A stretch of 43,542 bases of DNA from a virus: positions 1 through 43,542 of the IMG/VR virus record IMGVR_UViG_3300046660_000525, one strand, 5' to 3'. Both the position numbers and the translations under genes were made by a program. Positions 2,566 to 8,132 of the stretch are shown one piece after another. How positions within the stretch are numbered: the first letter of the stretch is position 1; the number at the start of each line of letters is the position of its first letter. The notes below the pieces were generated by a model. That model searched no databases. It saw only the letters and a list, made by a program, of their open reading frames with translations, and was not told the origin of the DNA.

Positions 2566-3470
2566 GAGCGGCCGTCCTTCCGGGAGTTCAGGGTGAAGAC
2601 ACGGCCCGTCGGCAGGTCGTGCAGCGTCAGCAGCCCTCGATGGGCGCGCTGGGAGAGGAAGTTGCGGGCGTCGGAGCGGTAGAGGCCGCGGGCGTAGCGG
2701 GCGAGGTAGAGGTGCTGGACGCGCTTCGGGGTCCACTCGCCTTGCCACTGGCGGATCGCGGTGTCGAGGACGTTGTTCCAGTCGTCCGGCCAGATGAGGG
2801 TCTTCTCGGCGGGAGTGGCCGTCGTCGCCGGAGCGGTGGCCTTCTCCTCGGCGGGCGTGGTCTCCGCGAGGAACGCGGCCACCTTCGGGAACTGGGCATC
2901 GACCGAACGACGGACGGCCTGCTCCTCGGCGGACTCGTCCTCGCGCAGGGCCTGCGTCGGGGCGAACAGTGCAGTCAGCTTGTCCACCGAGGTCTCAGCC
3001 TTCGGCGTCAACGCGAACGCGATCGGGTGCTCGTCGACCGACCGCTCGAACTCGGCGAGCCGGGCCCGCAGCTGCGCGGCTTCCGCCTCAACGTCCAGTA
3101 GACGGCGCAGAACTGGGGCCATCCGCTCCCCCATGTAGGAGGAGAGGTTCATGCAGTAGAGGTCTTCCCACGTGGGGTGCTCGTGGTTGCGCCGGTTGGC
3201 GATCGACTGGCCGAAGGAGACGATCAGTCCGGTAGTGGCGGGCTTCGCGTCGCCGAGCTGCTCGTCCAGAGCCGTGCACTGCTCGGGAGACAGCTCCGCC
3301 GGGGCGGCATTGAACCGCTCGCGCAGCCGTGTCAGCTCGGCCGCCGTCTCCGGCGTCTGGAGCATGCCCGTCGCGTCCAGCGCCATCGCCCAACCCGCAG
3401 GCGTCTGCTTCCCGTTCGCCATCGCGCGGGCAATCACGTCCGCCGCGGCGTTCACCGACCGGGCGATCAC
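2562..3470 (-). CDS. Hypothetical early protein with central coiled coil
   Basis: 302 residues from the GTG at 3470, which overlaps the upstream stop (GTGA). Residues 1-100 are helical. A central segment with LRRLLDVEAEAAQLRARL is a likely coiled coil. An Ala/Thr/Glu linker follows, and then a compact C-terminal domain beginning WPDDWNNVLDTAIRQW and ending VFTLNSRK. The C-terminal part, with QHLYLARYARGLYRSDARN, could be a small winged-helix fold, but this is only an impression. Function unknown; it lies upstream of the recombination genes in the same operon. Confidence 0.8.
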   Translation of the reverse strand: MIARSVNAAADVIARAMANGKQTPAGWAMALDATGMLQTPETAAELTRLRERFNAAPAELSPEQCTALDEQLGDAKPATTGLIVSFGQSIANRRNHEHPTWEDLYCMNLSSYMGERMAPVLRRLLDVEAEAAQLRARLAEFERSVDEHPIAFALTPKAETSVDKLTALFAPTQALREDESAEEQAVRRSVDAQFPKVAAFLAETTPAEEKATAPATTATPAEKTLIWPDDWNNVLDTAIRQWQGEWTPKRVQHLYLARYARGLYRSDARNFLSQRAHRGLLTLHDLPTGRVFTLNSRKDGRS

Positions 3471-3859
3471 GCGGCCACCGCCGAAGGGGCCTCGTCGACG
3501 GCCTGCGGCGTCTCGGCCTGCTCCCTCGTCAACGGCACGCGGAAACCACTGAGGCTGAGCGGCACCCCTCGGAAGACGCCGGAGGCGTCCAGCCACACAC
3601 TCCCTCCCGAGGCGTTCAGCGTGATCGGGTTGGTCGGGAGCTGGAGCGCGGTGCGCCACGCCTCGAAGTGCGAGGGGTGATCCAACTGGAGGTTGAAGCC
3701 CTCGGTGCCGGAGGAGTAGATCGTGACGTACGGCTTCGGGAGGGAGGGGAACATCTTGATCAGCGCGAAGAGCGCCTCGACGGCGACCGTCTGCTCGACG
3801 AGCTGTCCGGGATCCGGCGCGGTGAGCTGCGCCGCCGGTTGAGTAGTCTCGGTGGTCAC
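3467..3859 (-). CDS. Hypothetical early protein
   Basis: 130 residues from the GTG at 3859, which has AGAGG six bases upstream. The N-terminus is Thr/Gln/Pro-rich, followed by a likely compact alpha/beta domain (LFALIKMFPSLPKPYVTIY, then LQLDHPSHFEAWRTAL). The C-terminus is Pro/Ala-rich. I see no catalytic motif. The stop overlaps the next gene's GTG. Function unknown. Confidence 0.75.
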   Translation of the reverse strand: MTTETTQPAAQLTAPDPGQLVEQTVAVEALFALIKMFPSLPKPYVTIYSSGTEGFNLQLDHPSHFEAWRTALQLPTNPITLNASGGSVWLDASGVFRGVPLSLSGFRVPLTREQAETPQAVDEAPSAVAA

Positions 3860-3954
3860 GGTGACCTCTGCTTTCACTTGGTGGTGGAGGTGCCGAGTCG
3901 CGGGGTCGCTCAGGCCGGGAAGTCGGAGCGGCCCTTCGGCGCGTTCAGGGGGGA

Positions 3955-4179
3955 TCAGGCAGACGGCGCGAGGGCGGCCTGCTCGGCGTGCCAGGCCTCG
4001 CACTTCGGCAGGGAGAAGCGGCGCCCACGACCCGCGAAGGGCTCCTCGGGCATCCCGTCCTCGATCCAGCGGAGGATCTGCCAGTCCGAGACGTCGTAGT
4101 ACGTCTCGATCTGCTTCTGGCTGAGAAGGGGGATGAGACCGGCCGGTAGGGGGGCGACTCGGTCAGTCTTCTTCGGCAT
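3955..4179 (-). CDS. MerR-like HTH protein, candidate excisionase (Xis/RDF)
   Basis: 74 residues with one winged-helix HTH of the excisionase type: LLSQKQIETYYDVSDWQILRW, then EDGMP, then GRGRRFSLPKCEAW. Proteins of this size and fold act as recombination directionality factors or small regulators; they bend DNA by cooperative binding to short direct repeats. It overlaps the 3' end of the Cro-like gene by 17 bases and is the second gene of the early operon, where Xis is expected. The 10-bp-period arrays at 4570-4599 and in attP (7101-7195) are the obvious candidate targets. The RDF role is inferred; a purely regulatory role is possible. Confidence 0.7.
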   Translation of the reverse strand: MPKKTDRVAPLPAGLIPLLSQKQIETYYDVSDWQILRWIEDGMPEEPFAGRGRRFSLPKCEAWHAEQAALAPSA

Positions 4180-4477
4180 GGGACCTTGACCTTTCTACTG
4201 TCACAGTCAAATGTGGGGGCATGGCAAAGAGGTCCTGGAGGGGTGCGTTCGTCCTCCTGTGCAGCGCTTCGGCGATGCGCCAGGCCGTTTCCATTTCGCA
4301 CCGGTCGCGGGCGGTCTTGCCGCGTCCAGTGAGGCGTCCGACGGTGGCCGGGCTGACGCCCTTGCCCGTCGGATCCACCTCCTTCGTCGCCTCCGCGAGC
4401 TCCGGGCCGGAGAGGCCGGCGGCTCGCATTGCGGCTCTGAGTGGCTGGCCTTCGCCCTTGCGGTGCAGCTTTGGCAT
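4163..4477 (-). CDS. Cro-like XRE-family HTH regulator, first early gene
   Basis: 104 residues with a helix-turn-helix of XRE type: LRAAMRAAGLSGPELAEAT, then VSPATVGRLTGRG, then TAWRIAEALHRRT. It diverges from the repressor at 4746 and is the first gene behind the promoter at 4535-4564, the position of cro in lambdoid and actinobacterial phages. Its C-terminal codons contain the third operator copy (4193-4209), so the DNA there has two jobs. The Cro role is inferred from position and fold. Confidence 0.8.
   Translation of the reverse strand: MPKLHRKGEGQPLRAAMRAAGLSGPELAEATKEVDPTGKGVSPATVGRLTGRGKTARDRCEMETAWRIAEALHRRTNAPLQDLFAMPPHLTVTVERSRSHAEED
4193..4209 (+). promoter_or_regulatory. Operator candidate 1
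   Basis: TTCTACTGTCACAGTCA matches operator candidate 2 (4536-4552) in 15 of 17 bases and candidate 3 (4698-4714) in 13 of 17. All three are in the same orientation and fit TTYTACWNTCACNNKCA. This copy lies in the 3' end of the Cro-like gene, just upstream of the Xis-type gene start at 4179, and could act as a secondary control site. Confidence 0.55.
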
Positions 4478-4534
4478 GTGGACCCCGTGCCGGGTGGTGG
4501 CTGTGTGACACCCCCGGTGTGGGGTGCTGTGACA

Positions 4535-4564
4535 TTTTTACAGTCACAGTCACAACGTCGTCAA
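4535..4564 (-). promoter_or_regulatory. Early (PR-like) promoter candidate
   Basis: On the minus strand a -35 of TTGACG (4559-4564) is followed after 18 bases by TAAAAA (4535-4540); TGTAAA at 16 bases is an alternative -10. It points at the Cro-like gene and the whole early operon. The -10 region lies under operator candidate 2 and inside the inverted repeat CTGTGAC-N9-GTCACAG (4527-4549), a layout expected for repression. Confidence 0.55.
4536..4552 (+). promoter_or_regulatory. Operator candidate 2
   Basis: TTTTACAGTCACAGTCA covers the -10 region of the early promoter. The flanking bases form an inverted repeat with 7-base arms and a 9-base spacer (4527-4533 and 4543-4549). The same 9-base spacer separates the arms of the 4696-4726 inverted repeat. 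A dimeric XRE repressor bound here would block early transcription. Confidence 0.6.
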
Positions 4565-4569
4565 CGGTT

Positions 4570-4599
4570 TCGCCGAGTCTCGCCGAGATTCGCCGAGTA
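4570..4599. repeat. 10-bp-period tandem array upstream of early promoter
   Basis: Three units of TCGCCGAG-N2 stand exactly 10 bp apart, directly upstream of the -35 of the early promoter. Read on the minus strand they are CTCGGCGA-N2, the same unit as the tandem arrays inside attP at 7101-7140 and 7166-7195. One helical turn per unit points to cooperative binding of a small protein along one DNA face. Confidence 0.75.
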
Positions 4600-4695
4600 A
4601 CCCACGATCTTCGAATGAGTGTTCTATTCTCGGTGCATATGCAGTTCACCACGGCGCGTGGCGGGGAGGTCGCGCGCTGCGATACATCGCGCCAT

Positions 4696-4726
4696 GCTTC
4701 TACTTTCACTTGCAAAAAGTAGAAGC
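4696..4726 (+). promoter_or_regulatory. Repressor-gene operator (inverted repeat) with promoter
   Basis: Perfect inverted repeat GCTTCTACTTT (4696-4706) / AAAGTAGAAGC (4716-4726) with a 9-base spacer; it contains operator candidate 3 (4698-4714). A plausible promoter overlaps it: -35 TTGCAA at 4710-4715, 18 bases, -10 CAATCT at 4734-4739. That would start transcription at about the GTG at 4746 and give a leaderless message. Binding here would autoregulate the repressor. Confidence 0.6.
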
Positions 4727-4745
4727 GGACGGGCAATCTGAGCGC

Positions 4746-5108
4746 GTGGAAAACCAGGAGCAGCCCGGCGAGACGTTCGCGGAGGTGCTCGCTGAGCTGA
4801 TGGACGAGTACCGCGTCAGCCAAAGCGACATCTCGCGAGCCATCGACGGCTCCCCCTCCACGGTGAGCCTCTGGTTGCGCGGGCAGCGAACCCCGCGCAA
4901 CGACACGATCAGGAAGATCGCCGAGGCTTACCCGAAGTACAGCGTCAAGCGCCTGACTGAAGCGGCTGGCCGCAAGGCTCCGGCGCCACTGACACCTGAC
5001 CGCAGGGAGCGGGTCCTCGACATCTTCGACCAGCTGACGGAAGAACAGCAGGAGATGATGTTGATTACAGGGAAGGCGCTCGCGGACAGTAACCGCGAGC
5101 AGAACTGA
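4746..5108 (+). CDS. XRE-family phage repressor
   Basis: 120 residues from the GTG at 4746. The HTH is typical: FAEVLAELMDEYRVSQSDIS, then AIDGSPSTVSLWLRGQRTPR, followed by TIRKIAEAYP. The C-terminal 50 residues (RERVLDIFDQLTEEQQEMM) look like a helical dimerisation segment. There is no peptidase domain, so release by RecA-type self-cleavage is unlikely. I chose GTG 4746 over an in-frame TTG at 4710 because the TTG lies inside the perfect inverted repeat and likely -35. Divergence from the Cro-like gene and proximity to integrase and attP make it the immunity repressor by position. Confidence 0.8.
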   Translation: MENQEQPGETFAEVLAELMDEYRVSQSDISRAIDGSPSTVSLWLRGQRTPRNDTIRKIAEAYPKYSVKRLTEAAGRKAPAPLTPDRRERVLDIFDQLTEEQQEMMLITGKALADSNREQN

Positions 5109-5171
5109 CATAGCGTCATAAACGCGCGTACAACCCTTGCCTGGGCTGAATGGTCTCAGCTAAACGGACTC

Positions 5172-5188
5172 AATCACTCTCGGTGATT
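5172..5188. promoter_or_regulatory. Inverted repeat between repressor and next gene
   Basis: AATCAC-TCTCG-GTGATT, with 6-base arms and a 5-base loop, lies in the 204-bp non-coding stretch 5109-5312. It could be an operator or a weak hairpin. I see no convincing promoter or terminator in the rest of this stretch. Confidence 0.35.
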
Positions 5189-5312
5189 CTGTGTGCGCGG
5201 ATCTTGCACAGAGTGGTCGCATATTCCACCAAGTCGGGGTAGTTTCGAGCGCACGGCCGATGTCCTCCCCCTTTGGCCCTCGATAGCCACACGTGTATCA
5301 GGGGGGACCGCC

Positions 5313-5564
5313 ATGTGCATCCGCGTCCAGTACGCACCGCGTCACGAGCTCGACGAGCCGTGGGACGCGTCCCGCCAACTGATCACCATCCCAGGCGAGT
5401 TGAAGGGCAACTTCGCCCTTCGAGCCGTCCGCGCCGTACTCACCGAGCTCGACATCGAGCAGGATGAAGACGGCGCACGGTGCTGGTGCGGGGAGCTCAT
5501 CAGACTCCTCGCGTACATACCTCAGCAGCGAAAGAACGACGAGGTGATCAACCTTGGCGCCTAA
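5313..5564 (+). CDS. Small conserved CWCGE-motif protein
   Basis: 83 residues from an ATG preceded by a run AGGGGGGA. A pattern I recognise from small Streptomyces proteins: MCIRVQYAPRHELDEPWDAS at the start, ALRAVRAVLTEL in the middle, CWCGELIRLL and PQQRKNDEVINLGA at the end. The CWC could bind metal, but two cysteines are not enough for a full site in a monomer. It lies between repressor and integrase on the same strand, and its last codons carry the ribosome site and TTG start of the next gene. Function unknown. Confidence 0.8.
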   Translation: MCIRVQYAPRHELDEPWDASRQLITIPGELKGNFALRAVRAVLTELDIEQDEDGARCWCGELIRLLAYIPQQRKNDEVINLGA

Positions 5565-5787
5565 GCCTGTGATTGAGCAGGTCCCCAGTCGCACATGCGG
5601 CTGCTACGACTGCCTGATCGACTACCCATCGTCGACATACGGCTTCCGCCCTCCACGGACCGAATGCAACGGCCCGTGGAACGTGCGATACCGCAGCACA
5701 GACGGCAGACTGCGTTTGAAGCGGCTCCCCAACCGCAAGGACGCGCAGCTGTTCGCCACGACGGGAGCGAGGCGCAATGCCTCGTAG
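5554..5787 (+). CDS. Stand-alone paralogue of the integrase N-terminal domain
   Basis: 77 residues from a TTG at 5554 with GAGGTGAT upstream; it overlaps the previous stop and the integrase start. It matches the first 65 residues of the integrase next to it: both have CGC-x2-CL-x2-YP, YG-x-R-x-PR-x2-C, then G-x-W-x2-RYR. Such an N-terminal segment should contact arm-type sites in attP. The protein ends soon after, with no core-binding or catalytic domain. Possible roles are an excision factor, an integration modulator that competes for arm sites, or a duplicated remnant. The intact frame and good start signals argue against decay. Confidence 0.8.
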   Translation: MAPKPVIEQVPSRTCGCYDCLIDYPSSTYGFRPPRTECNGPWNVRYRSTDGRLRLKRLPNRKDAQLFATTGARRNAS

Positions 5788-7060
5788 GGCCGCGAACAAC
5801 CCCCGCCAGATCCGCAGCAAGGTGTGCGGCTGCGTCCTCTGCCTGGAGGAGTACCCGCCGGACGAGTACGGCGAGCGCCGGCCTCGCCGTGACTGCGTCG
5901 GATCGTGGCAGGCCCGGTACCGCGATCCGACCGGGAAGCAGAAGTCCAGGAACTTTCCGATCAAGGACGGCGGCAAGGCCGCCGCGGAAGCCTTCCTCGA
6001 CGAGACACGTACCGCCGTCCGCCAGCGCACCTACCGAGACCCCGAGCGAGGAAAGATCACGCTGGGCAAGTGGTGGGGCGAGTTCTGGGAGGTCGAGCAG
6101 AAGAAGGGCCGGCCCACCACGAGGAACCGGAAGTTGGGCCTATGGACGGCCCACATCGAGCCCAAGTGGAGCGGCTACCGGCTGATCGACCTGGAGTACA
6201 TGGTCCTTCAACAGTGGCTCACCCGCGACGTGAAGGGCTACGAGACCCAGAAGAAGACCAAGGAGCTGCTCGTCGCGCTCCTGGATGCGGCGATCAGGGA
6301 CGGCGAGCGGATCACGTCCAACCCTGCGGCCCACCTGGAGCCCACGGCCGCGAAGATCGTCAAGCATCCCGACGACCTCAAGCCACCGACGGAGGCCCAG
6401 TACACGCTCATCCACGCGGCGCTGCCCGCGTACTACCAAGTGATCTTCCGGGACTGGGCCAACGAGACGGGCATGCGGCCGGGGGAGTACGCCGGCCTCC
6501 GTGAGCACTGCATCGACGAGGAGGAGCGCATCGCCTACATCAAGGAGATTCTCATCCTCGACGGTGGCCGTCTGCGCCGTCAGGCGGCTCCCAAGACGGA
6601 CGCCGGATTTCGGGGCGTGCCCCTGACCGATCGTGCGTGGGGCGCGTACCTGTTCATGAAGCAGAAGTGGAAGCCGCTGCGGACGCGCTCCGCGATCGGT
6701 GACGGGTTCGACCTCCACCTTGAGGAGCTCGTGCTCCGCGGTCCGAGGGGTGCGGCGCTCAACGAGAACAACCTCCGTCGGCCGTGGCGGAGGGCGTGCG
6801 ATCAGGCCGGGGTGTCGCGGGAGTTCGTCGACCCGGAGACCGGGCGCTCGCAGTGGTGGCCGCGGATCTACGAGTACCGGCACGACGTGAGCAGCCGGTT
6901 GCACCACGCGGGCGTGAAGGAAGTGGACACTCAGGCGTTCCTCGGTCAGCGGCGCGGCGGCAAGGTGACGTGGCTGTACACCCACGAGAGCGAGGGCGCA
7001 CGCGAGAACGTGCGTGCCGCGCTGAATGGGGAGGGAAGTGGACTCCGCGCCGTGCAGTGA
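5777..7060 (+). CDS. int: Tyrosine integrase
   Basis: 427 residues; GCGAGG lies just upstream of the ATG. Domains: cysteine-rich N-terminal arm-binding segment (C17, C19, C22, C40, then GSWQARYRD), core-binding domain at about 92-190 and catalytic domain at about 200-415. Catalytic residues visible are R234 (TGMRPGEY), K273 (APKTDAGFRG), R368 and Y401 (WLYTHES). The usual first histidine of box II is tyrosine (Y365-x2-R368-H369) and the usual LGH is LGQ (Q391). Role: recombination between attP just downstream and a host tRNA gene. The frame is complete. Confidence 0.95.
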   Translation: MPRRAANNPRQIRSKVCGCVLCLEEYPPDEYGERRPRRDCVGSWQARYRDPTGKQKSRNFPIKDGGKAAAEAFLDETRTAVRQRTYRDPERGKITLGKWWGEFWEVEQKKGRPTTRNRKLGLWTAHIEPKWSGYRLIDLEYMVLQQWLTRDVKGYETQKKTKELLVALLDAAIRDGERITSNPAAHLEPTAAKIVKHPDDLKPPTEAQYTLIHAALPAYYQVIFRDWANETGMRPGEYAGLREHCIDEEERIAYIKEILILDGGRLRRQAAPKTDAGFRGVPLTDRAWGAYLFMKQKWKPLRTRSAIGDGFDLHLEELVLRGPRGAALNENNLRRPWRRACDQAGVSREFVDPETGRSQWWPRIYEYRHDVSSRLHHAGVKEVDTQAFLGQRRGGKVTWLYTHESEGARENVRAALNGEGSGLRAVQ

Positions 7061-7076
7061 TCGTTTGGGGTCGGAA

Positions 7077-7095
7077 TCCACAAAGAGTCCACAAC
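7077..7095 (+). promoter_or_regulatory. P-arm integrase sites (paired)
   Basis: Two direct copies of TCCACAA start at 7077 and 7088, 11 bp apart. The same pair with the same spacing is found at 7336 and 7347 on the other side of the tRNA segment. An inverted copy, AAGTGGACT, lies at 7036-7044 in the end of the integrase gene. Paired direct repeats on both sides of the core are typical integrase arm-type sites. Confidence 0.65.
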
Positions 7096-7100
7096 GCCCC

Positions 7101-7140
7101 CTCGGCGAGTCTCGGCGAGTCTCGGCGAGTTCCGACGAGG
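7101..7140. repeat. 10-bp-period array in attP, cluster 1
   Basis: Three exact copies of CTCGGCGAGT at 7101, 7111 and 7121 are followed by a degenerate unit (TCCGACGAGG). The array lies between the P-arm sites and the core, the place where an excisionase binds in lambda-type attP regions. The unit is the same as in the array upstream of the early promoter. Confidence 0.75.
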
Positions 7141-7165
7141 GGTGCCGCGGGGGTCGCGCTCGAAA

Positions 7166-7195
7166 CTCGGCGAGTCTCGGCGAGTCTCGGAGACC
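7166..7195. repeat. 10-bp-period array in attP, cluster 2
   Basis: Two exact copies of CTCGGCGAGT at 7166 and 7176 and a partial third (CTCGGAGA at 7186). It ends about 20 bp before the tRNA-derived core. Clusters 1 and 2 start 65 bp apart. Confidence 0.7.
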
Positions 7196-7216
7196 CTGTA
7201 TTTATCGAGGTGAGCC

Positions 7217-7260
7217 CTTACAAGGCGGATGTCGGCGGTTCGAAACCGTCCGCGCCCACC
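7217..7260 (+). other. attP: attP core: 3' segment of a tRNA gene
   Basis: The sequence has the shape of a tRNA from the anticodon loop to the 3' end: loop CTTACAA (7217-7223), stem GGCGG, variable ATGTC, T-stem GGCGG, T-loop TTCGAAA (7239-7245), CCGTC, acceptor CGCGCCC, then ACC. The bases at anticodon positions are TAC, so the target is probably tRNA-Val; this is inferred by position only. There is no 5' half here, so it is not a gene. Integration would restore the 3' end of the host tRNA. Confidence 0.85.
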
Positions 7261-7289
7261 GGGCCTGAGTAGCAGGTCAGCGGCTTAAA

Positions 7290-7321
7290 ACGGCCCCCCG
7301 GAGTGATTTTCGGGGGGCCGT
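7290..7321. terminator. Hairpin terminator downstream of attP core
   Basis: Perfect 11-base arms ACGGCCCCCCG (7290-7300) and CGGGGGGCCGT (7311-7321) with a 10-base loop that contains TTTT. It lies between the core and the P' arm and can stop transcripts from either side. Confidence 0.75.
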
Positions 7322-7335
7322 CCGTGTGATCAGAG

Positions 7336-7353
7336 TCCACTAAAAGTCCACAA
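7336..7353 (+). promoter_or_regulatory. P'-arm integrase sites (paired)
   Basis: TCCACTA at 7336 and TCCACAA at 7347 repeat the sequence, orientation and 11-bp spacing of the P-arm pair at 7077/7088. Confidence 0.65.
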
Positions 7354-7519
7354 CCCCCAGCGATCTTGCACTTCCGATCACTCGAATGGGTGACTGAACT
7401 GGCGGTAGACGCCACCTAGAGTTCCCAGCAGGACGAGGACGGCGCAGCTCCCCAATGCGCGCCAGACAGAGGCTCGTCGTCACCTGCGGTGTCCGGGCGG
7501 GGAGGCCCGGCCTGCGGGC

Positions 7520-7554
7520 GACGACCCCCGCCGAGAGGATCGGCGGGGGTCGTC
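7520..7554. terminator. Strong hairpin terminator
   Basis: Perfect 14-base arms GACGACCCCCGCCG (7520-7533) and CGGCGGGGGTCGTC (7541-7554) with a 7-base loop. It stands in the gene-free stretch after attP, with no open reading frame of clear quality next to it. Confidence 0.7.
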
Positions 7555-7569
7555 TGAGGCAAACGTAGA

Positions 7570-7599
7570 CCGCCCCACCCCGGCAAGGGGGTGGGGCGG
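7570..7599. terminator. Second hairpin terminator
   Basis: Perfect 12-base arms CCGCCCCACCCC (7570-7581) and GGGGTGGGGCGG (7588-7599), loop of 6. It follows the first hairpin by 15 bases; the pair isolates the integrase/attP side from the accessory module. Confidence 0.65.
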
Positions 7600-7602
7600 C
7601 TT

Positions 7603-7621
7603 GCTCTGACCGAGTCAGAGC
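7603..7621. promoter_or_regulatory. Inverted repeat, operator-like
   Basis: GCTCTGAC-CGA-GTCAGAGC (7603-7610 / 7614-7621) is a perfect 8-base inverted repeat with a 3-base centre. It is less GC-rich than the neighbouring terminators and looks more like a protein site than a terminator. Confidence 0.4.
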
Positions 7622-7898
7622 GATGGATGACGTATCGCGGCGGACAGAGGTACGCCACGCGCATCATCCTGCCCGCAACCGGTCGAACCGGAGCGGGCGT
7701 TCGGGCTGGGGGGTGGCAAGTGCCTGGTGCATGGGCCCCCAGCTTGCTTAGGCGGCCACCGCGGCTTCAACGCGGCACGGCGGGGACCACACAGACGAGT
7801 CCGGCGATCGCTCACGCTTGCGGTGGCATATCAATGATCACATAAAGCCTGGTGAGACCAGGCTGACATATGTTCGCGCAGGTCAGACGGTTTGTCGA
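7622..7898. other. Gene-free stretch with an operator-like repeat
   Basis: I see no convincing gene in these 277 bases; the frames here have poor composition and no ribosome sites. At 7846-7864 there is a perfect inverted repeat AGCCTGGT-GAG-ACCAGGCT about 35 bases before the XRE gene start. It is a likely autoregulatory operator of that gene. The rest could hold a small RNA or simply flank the recombination site. Confidence 0.45.
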
Positions 7899-8132
7899 GT
7901 GCCCAGCGACCTGACCGAAGACCCATGGCTCCACGACCGGCAGCGCATCGGCAGGGCTATCCGAGACGCGCGAATGTCCCAAAACCTCACCCAAGAGGCC
8001 GTCTTCCTCGCCATCCCGATGAACCGCAGCTACTACCAGGACATCGAGGCCGGCGAAGGCAACCCGACGCTCGACACCCTGTTGGCGATCGCCTCCGTGA
8101 TCGGTGTCCCGCTCGCCGACCTCGTGAGGTAG
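7899..8132 (+). CDS. XRE-family HTH regulator
   Basis: 77 residues from a GTG at 7899; an in-frame TTG at 7818 is possible but would extend the protein through the inverted repeat. The HTH covers most of the protein: IGRAIRDARMSQNLTQEAVF, then IPMNRSYYQDIEAGEGNP, then LDTLLAIASVIGVPLADLVR. It resembles small chromosomal XRE regulators of Streptomyces. It converges with the four-gene cluster behind it, 44 bases from that cluster's end, and is the first gene of the accessory module. Its target is unknown; the 7846-7864 repeat is a candidate. Confidence 0.8.
   Translation: MPSDLTEDPWLHDRQRIGRAIRDARMSQNLTQEAVFLAIPMNRSYYQDIEAGEGNPTLDTLLAIASVIGVPLADLVR

Follow-up and report, generated by a model that had tools for sequence, protein, structure and literature searches.

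A stand-alone cysteine-rich arm-type domain protein encoded directly before the tyrosine integrase in some Streptomyces phages: a possible modulator of the integrase

Results

Organization of the integration module

The window analysed here is the 43,542-base IMG/VR virus record IMGVR_UViG_3300046660_000525, in which the integration module is arranged on the plus strand in the order HTH gene P0004, P0003, S, int and then attP, preceded by a divergent pair of small minus-strand genes, repressor-like and Xis-like (Table 1). The 3' end of P0003 overlaps the start of S by 11 nt, and the stop of S in turn overlaps the start of int by 11 nt. A strong ribosome site, GAGGTGATC, is found 4 nt 5' of the TTG codon of S, and the 10 other S loci described below have a similar site at the equivalent position. 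The entire lysogeny/attachment module (3843–8130) is 92–94% identical to that of a prophage, L012, the rest of both phages being mosaic.

Table 1. Features of the lysogeny and integration module of the window
Feature	Position	Strand	Remarks
Xis-like gene, 74 aa	3955..4179	-	Counterpart of OnionKnight gp34, annotated 'excise'
Repressor-like gene	4163..4477	-	Positional counterpart of OnionKnight gp33 'immunity repressor'; sub-threshold HTH_31 match only
Three 10-bp repeats of CTCGGCGAGT type	4567..4598	-	Divergent promoter region
P0004, Cro/CI-type HTH protein	4710..5108	+	Upstream on the int side
P0003, phrog_22170	5313..5564	+	5' neighbour of S; PHROGs match
GAGGTGATC, Shine-Dalgarno-like site for S	5541..5549	+	Within the 3' end of P0003; read from the sequence
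S, stand-alone Cys-rich arm-type domain protein, 77 aa	5554..5787	+	TTG start, TAG stop, open frame
Tyrosine integrase (Int), 427 aa	5777..7060	+	3' neighbour of S; N-terminal domain homologous to S
Arm-site pair 1, AATCCACAA / AGTCCACAA	7075..7094	+	Start-to-start 11 bp
10-bp phased CTCGGCGAGT repeats in attP	7101..7193	+	Probable Xis sites
att core	7214..7260	+	Stretch common to both L012 prophage ends
Arm-site pair 2, AGTCCACTA / AGTCCACAA	7334..7353	+	11 bp apart

The TCCACAA arm sites named in the initial annotation are present as two pairs, and a search of the window for 11-bp-spaced repeats gave these and a few isolated repeats, with no other arm pairs. Repeats of the CTCGGCGAGT type are found in attP and again in the divergent promoter region; if they are Xis sites, as is probable, they would let Xis also regulate transcription. 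They occur in relatives with and without S, and their assignment as S sites was rejected, since they are present in relatives that lack S, among them SF3 and L040, and track the Xis type.

The Xis-like gene has no match in Pfam or NCBIfam; its name rests on the annotation of OnionKnight gp34 and on a resemblance to HTH excisionases, which we presume. By tblastn (E<=1e-3) it was detected in 10 of 11 S loci (partially, at the locus end, in L084), the one locus without a match, L083, being short, and it is present in nearly all loci without S as well.

Homology of S to the integrase N-terminal domain

In a single BLASTP comparison, S matched the N-terminal domain of Int with 22 identities over 51 positions (43%, E 5e-14), and a search of the whole record revealed S-type sequence in two places only, S itself and int. 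The initial annotation had described a 77-residue protein with an intact frame, a ribosome site and a cysteine-rich motif, devoid of the catalytic part of the integrase; all of this was borne out, the motif reading C15-G-C17-x2-C20 ... C38-x-G-x-W-x2-R-Y-R and no catalytic domain being found in the 77 residues using Pfam. Searches with Pfam and PHROGs did not reveal an HTH match; the AlphaFold2 model of S predicts instead a beta-sheet/helix fold with a Cys insert (strands 6–9, 42–47 and 53–58, helix 61–76; pLDDT 85.5, prediction only). As the model predicted for the Int N-domain comprises strands 44–49 and 55–60 and a helix at 66–79 (pLDDT 86.9), the two would share their predicted secondary structure, and since the C-terminus of S lies directly past the predicted domain helix, S is likely to represent a whole domain and not a random truncation.

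S itself matched 0 Pfam families and is not known to PADLOC, NCBIfam or PHROGs. Weak matches to PF14657 (Arm-DNA-bind_4) were obtained for 9 of 40 aligned members, the best one, the stand-alone protein of L074, lying below the cut-off (E 0.0028; 17.6 bits versus 22.3). Foldseek with S gave no match at E<=0.001, and the VIA-align rows for S had Z values of 2–3.9, with dsRBD- and AP2-type chains among them. Fold and structure searches thus yielded no convincing relative, a negative outcome that by itself is no proof of absence.

Among annotated phages, tblastn matched S to the integrase N-termini of SF3, mu1/6, VWB and OnionKnight, with an additional, weaker match at a second place in SF3. In this phage (L003), the C-terminus of the 180-aa protein SF3_460 (2951–3493) is similar to S residues 35–71 (50% over 37 aa), and SF3_460-like matches are also found in L020, L024, L025 and L070; this C-terminus resembles another free arm-like module that would lack the cysteine part. 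Two annotations in these records deserve mention: the annotated start of the SF3 integrase (SF3_390) lies 22 codons inside the gene, cutting off the N-terminal cysteine region, and in the VWB record (L006, 1494–1736) a P0003 homologue directly 5' of int carries no gene annotation.

Distribution of S among related loci

To obtain a sample independent of S, loci were collected with the P0003 alignment as query. This search yielded 61 loci (6 in genome_contigs and 55 in viral_contigs), and the P0003-int junction was readable in 59, a set with some redundancy (one S is common to L014 and L023, and identical integrases occur among some of the other loci). P0003 and int overlap directly in 40 of these loci, are separated by a short spacer in 13 and flank an intact S in the remaining 6. 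All 13 spacers contain an ORF of 16–24 codons that is in frame and whose end overlaps int by 11 nt, and 11 of these ORFs also have a start overlapping the P0003 stop by the same length. The beginning of the L051 remnant is still S-like, with TCSC kept. Frequent decay of the gene in relatives, named in the initial annotation as a result that would refute its proposal, was thus found in part, as short in-frame remnants are all that is left of S in 13 of 59 loci.

A scan with S proteins matched 7 loci, 3 of them new; a search of viral_contigs with a single S sequence gave no match, whereas the P0003-alignment and S-alignment searches did. In 392 sampled Streptomyces genomes, 21 matches were obtained at E<=1e-9 (S plus integrase in 3, integrase only in 18), and 394 genomes of the class contained no new S (9 with a match at E<=1e-7, one being an already-known S). 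A scan with the integrase as query added six near-identical loci, none with S, which were left out of the 59.

Overall, 11 distinct intact S proteins of 74–80 aa were collected from Streptomyces phages and prophages, one from the window and 10 from elsewhere, and the pair of S and integrase is also found in other phages. The integrase is visible 3' of 8 of the 11, the int overlap being 11 nt in all 8, and for the remaining 3 the contig reaches no further than the stop codon of S. The viral contigs L018, L023, L073 and L077 stop exactly at this codon; probably they are prophages trimmed at gene borders, which would hide the integrase. True element ends were rejected as an explanation, since L014, with the same S as L023, has int next.

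Origin, selection and loss of S

In a tree with 64 integrase domains, from which three near-duplicate integrase rows were left out, the 11 S rows form one clade apart from the integrases (support 100/94), a clade present in 100% of 200 bootstrap trees (65 columns). A single clade fits one origin and, together with the 43% identity, indicates that S is a distant paralogue and not a recent copy; the initial annotation, which had spoken of a copy of the integrase arm-binding domain, is to be corrected in this respect.

On an integrase tree of 62 rows (L068 scored as direct overlap by eye, L097 unreadable, and L101 and L102 assigned from a loose pattern), S requires 7 changes for 8 loci compared with a mean of 7.6 after shuffling, so that its presence does not track the integrase; the remnants require 6 changes.

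Across 55 pairs of S, mean pN was 0.285 and mean pS 0.490, with pN below pS in 54 of 55, and by this measure S is under purifying selection, though mild. The four cysteines, G16, G40, W42, R45 and K56 are kept in all 11 S, as are S12, D23 and P33, which are specific to S and variable in integrases. Conversely, S has not conserved two residues that are present in 67 of 67 integrase rows, R8 and Q43 (S numbering), and R35, R36, D37, D48 and D69 (62–66 of 67 rows) are mostly lost, while the basic residues at 54 and 56 are better conserved in S than in Int. As judged from a mean charge of 4.6 over the first 16 residues of integrases and of -1 to +2 over the first 14 of S, the N-terminal basic tail is reduced in S.

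The intact S of L083 is preceded by a degenerate integrase-N copy and, after this copy, a remnant of P0003 (around 989–1480). Two cysteines and the frame are lost in the copy, an arrangement which suggests how the junction rearranges and how an unselected copy decays.

These data bear on the possibility that S is a duplicate of little use, retained mainly as a frame coupling int translation to P0003 and repeatedly lost. Such a history would account for the 13 spacers with their in-frame ORFs ending in the int overlap, for the S-like start of the L051 remnant, for the 6 changes of the remnants and 7 of S on the integrase tree and for the second, degenerate int-N copy in L083. However, P0003 and int are coupled directly in 40 of 59 loci, so that an insert is not needed for coupling, and S, although deeply diverged, has retained its four cysteines and the residues invariant within S, unlike the degenerate copy in L083. 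We consider a mere coupling frame to be unlikely.

Exchange of S between integration modules

For the 8 loci with a visible integrase, P0003 identities correlated with Int identities (r 0.82, p 0.001), in contrast to S identities (r 0.28, p 0.11); this contrast rests partly on one pair, being weaker when L012 is left out (P0003-Int r 0.62, p 0.013; S-Int r 0.45, p 0.05). Between the window and the L012 prophage, the stretch 3843–7260 is ~92% identical overall and mostly 90–100% identical per 50-base block, whereas the blocks across S (5563–5812) fall to 0.70, 0.64, 0.66, 0.54 and 0.78, S being ~63% identical. Accordingly, the protein identities are 98% for P0003 and 97% for Int but 52% for S. 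The S and Int trees also conflict, as the S proteins of L019 and L083 are sisters (100/87) and their integrases belong to different supported clades. By these alignments and trees, S is a gene that moves as a one-gene cassette.

Arm-site reading by the integrase and by S

The Int residue aligned to position 57 of S is N or H in all 35 loci in which base 3 of the arm site is T, and C, V, T or R in all 14 in which it is G, and thus predicts base 3 in 49 of 49 loci; this number derives from 62 integrases, among which the residue was readable in 59, and 10 of the 59 lacked an arm pair by the rule used. In the window, the predictive Int residue lies in the codons around G-K-Q-K-x-K-N-F. On a tree built without the N-domain, residue and base each change 7 times, and the 4 independent pairs on well-supported branches are all in agreement, a number too small for significance on its own. 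The pairing suggests a candidate recognition code for Cys-rich arm domains.

The residue at position 57 of the 11 S proteins is R, L, T, N, A, N, R, R, N, S and T, and it agrees with that of the cognate Int in 1 of 8 loci. This is directly relevant to the proposal of the initial annotation that S occupies the TCCACAA sites and thereby controls direction. S would, according to this proposal, compete with Int for the arm sites and set the balance between integration and excision, as its membership in the same domain family, its conserved basic residues and the lack of further candidate arm pairs in the window would allow; a related precedent is provided by transposase genes with products that comprise the DNA-binding part only, for example IS1 InsA. 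Yet S does not follow at position 57 the code that holds in 49 of 49 loci, has not kept R8 and Q43 and has mostly lost R35-R36-D37. Moreover, both arm pairs are letter-identical between the window and L012, whose integrases are nearly so, but the two S proteins are only 52% identical. Lacking the presumed base-reading residues of Int, and divergent where the arm pairs are identical, S most likely does not read the arm sites in the manner of the integrase. Finally, the Xis-like gene accompanies the module with or without S, and most relatives with the same type of attP have no S at all. Direction control through occupancy of TCCACAA is therefore not supported, and we regard competition for the arm sites as improbable.

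At positions 43, 53, 55 and 57, pN exceeds pS in S (0.567 and 0.467) and not in the cognate Int (0.148 and 0.360), and the mean excess variability is reached by 4.5% (53/55/57) or 0.4% (43/53/55/57) of random column sets; the positions were picked after inspection of the alignment, and their outward face was deduced otherwise than from coordinates. Along with the divergent S allele between flanks mostly above 90% identity in the window and L012, and with the conflict between the S and Int trees, this variability could mean that S is a DNA-binding cassette undergoing diversification of its specificity, the versions reading different sequences and being swapped between phages, with targets perhaps on other mobile elements competing for the cell. 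Each version of this swappable, integrase-born cassette would then read its own sequence, probably outside the phage's attP, in a role in element competition or of an immunity-like kind; both the diversification and such a role appear doubtful to us. The post hoc choice of the four positions weighs against them, no target sequence was found and PADLOC gave no match, and relaxed constraint would look alike.

Discussion

S resembles an Xis or recombination directionality factor in being small, in having its gene next to int and in its potential to affect the reaction. Such factors usually have an HTH or winged-helix fold, which differs from the fold predicted for S, and the phages with S already have an Xis-like gene. 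S can also be compared with the AB domain of IntTn916-type integrases (PF14657), which is N-terminal in the related integrases and for which a fold of three strands plus a single helix is described (PMC8138268), the elements also predicted for S; in contrast to this domain, S stands alone, without a core-binding or catalytic domain, carries a Cys-x-Cys-x2-Cys...Cys insert and has lost the presumed base-reading residues of Int. With IS1 InsA and the OrfA proteins of the IS3 family, S shares that the DNA-binding part of a recombinase is made without the catalytic part. For the frameshifted orfAB gene, OrfA is described as a product in its own right (PMC3219604), whereas S is a separate, long-diverged gene and not an alternative int product, and the target-reading residues differ.

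The integrases of VWB, mu1/6, OnionKnight and SF3 belong to the same family as the window Int (49–52% identity), and their attP sites have arm pairs of the same kind. None of these phages has an intact S: in VWB, mu1/6 and OnionKnight the P0003 homologue overlaps int directly by 11 nt, as P0003 overlaps S in the window, and SF3 has a 24-codon in-frame remnant.

We favour, tentatively and at somewhat below even chances, a model in which S is an optional small modulator or partner of Int. S, an old and separately inherited paralogue of the arm-binding domain, would have a single origin, for which the simplest route is a tandem duplication of the 5' portion of int between the start sites of P0003 and int. 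Since then it has retained the zinc-type cysteines, the predicted fold of beta-sheet and helix and some of the basic residues, and has lost the presumed base-reading residues of Int. The 11-nt overlaps and ribosome sites point to translation by coupling directly before Int. As a DNA-binding domain without a catalytic part and with relaxed or different DNA specificity, S may enter or adjoin the Int-attP complex through the Int arm domains or through unspecific DNA contacts, and could there alter the amount of Int needed or the stability of the complex. It would not replace Xis, which is the probable direction factor.

The model draws on the homology to the Int N-domain, the shared predicted fold, the single clade and the purifying selection and residue conservation, and on the observed linkage to int, by overlap in 8 of 8 S loci and through the remnants in 13 of 13. 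In prophage KplE1, excess integrase is reported to lower excision, and the integrase and its direction factor both to repress int (PMC2951348), effects which indicate that an Int-DNA complex can be dosage-sensitive. The absence of S from 40 of 59 loci and its reduction to a remnant in 13 imply that it is dispensable, and the weak S-Int identity correlation is unlike the expectation for a tight partner of Int. The failure of Foldseek to find a convincing structural relative of the S model is a further point against a partner role.

In our literature search, which comprised titles and abstract openings and few subscription papers, no description was found of an arm domain encoded on its own next to a tyrosine integrase. 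If S modulates Int, it would represent an integrase arm domain acting as a separate regulator beside its parent, a case not found in the literature searched. The match between residue and base in 49 of 49 loci hints at how Cys-rich arm domains read their sites, and both this reading and the specificity of S are directly testable. As the VWB and mu1/6 integrases are reported to serve as Streptomyces integration systems (PMC12924846), a natural modulator of Int could be useful for these systems.
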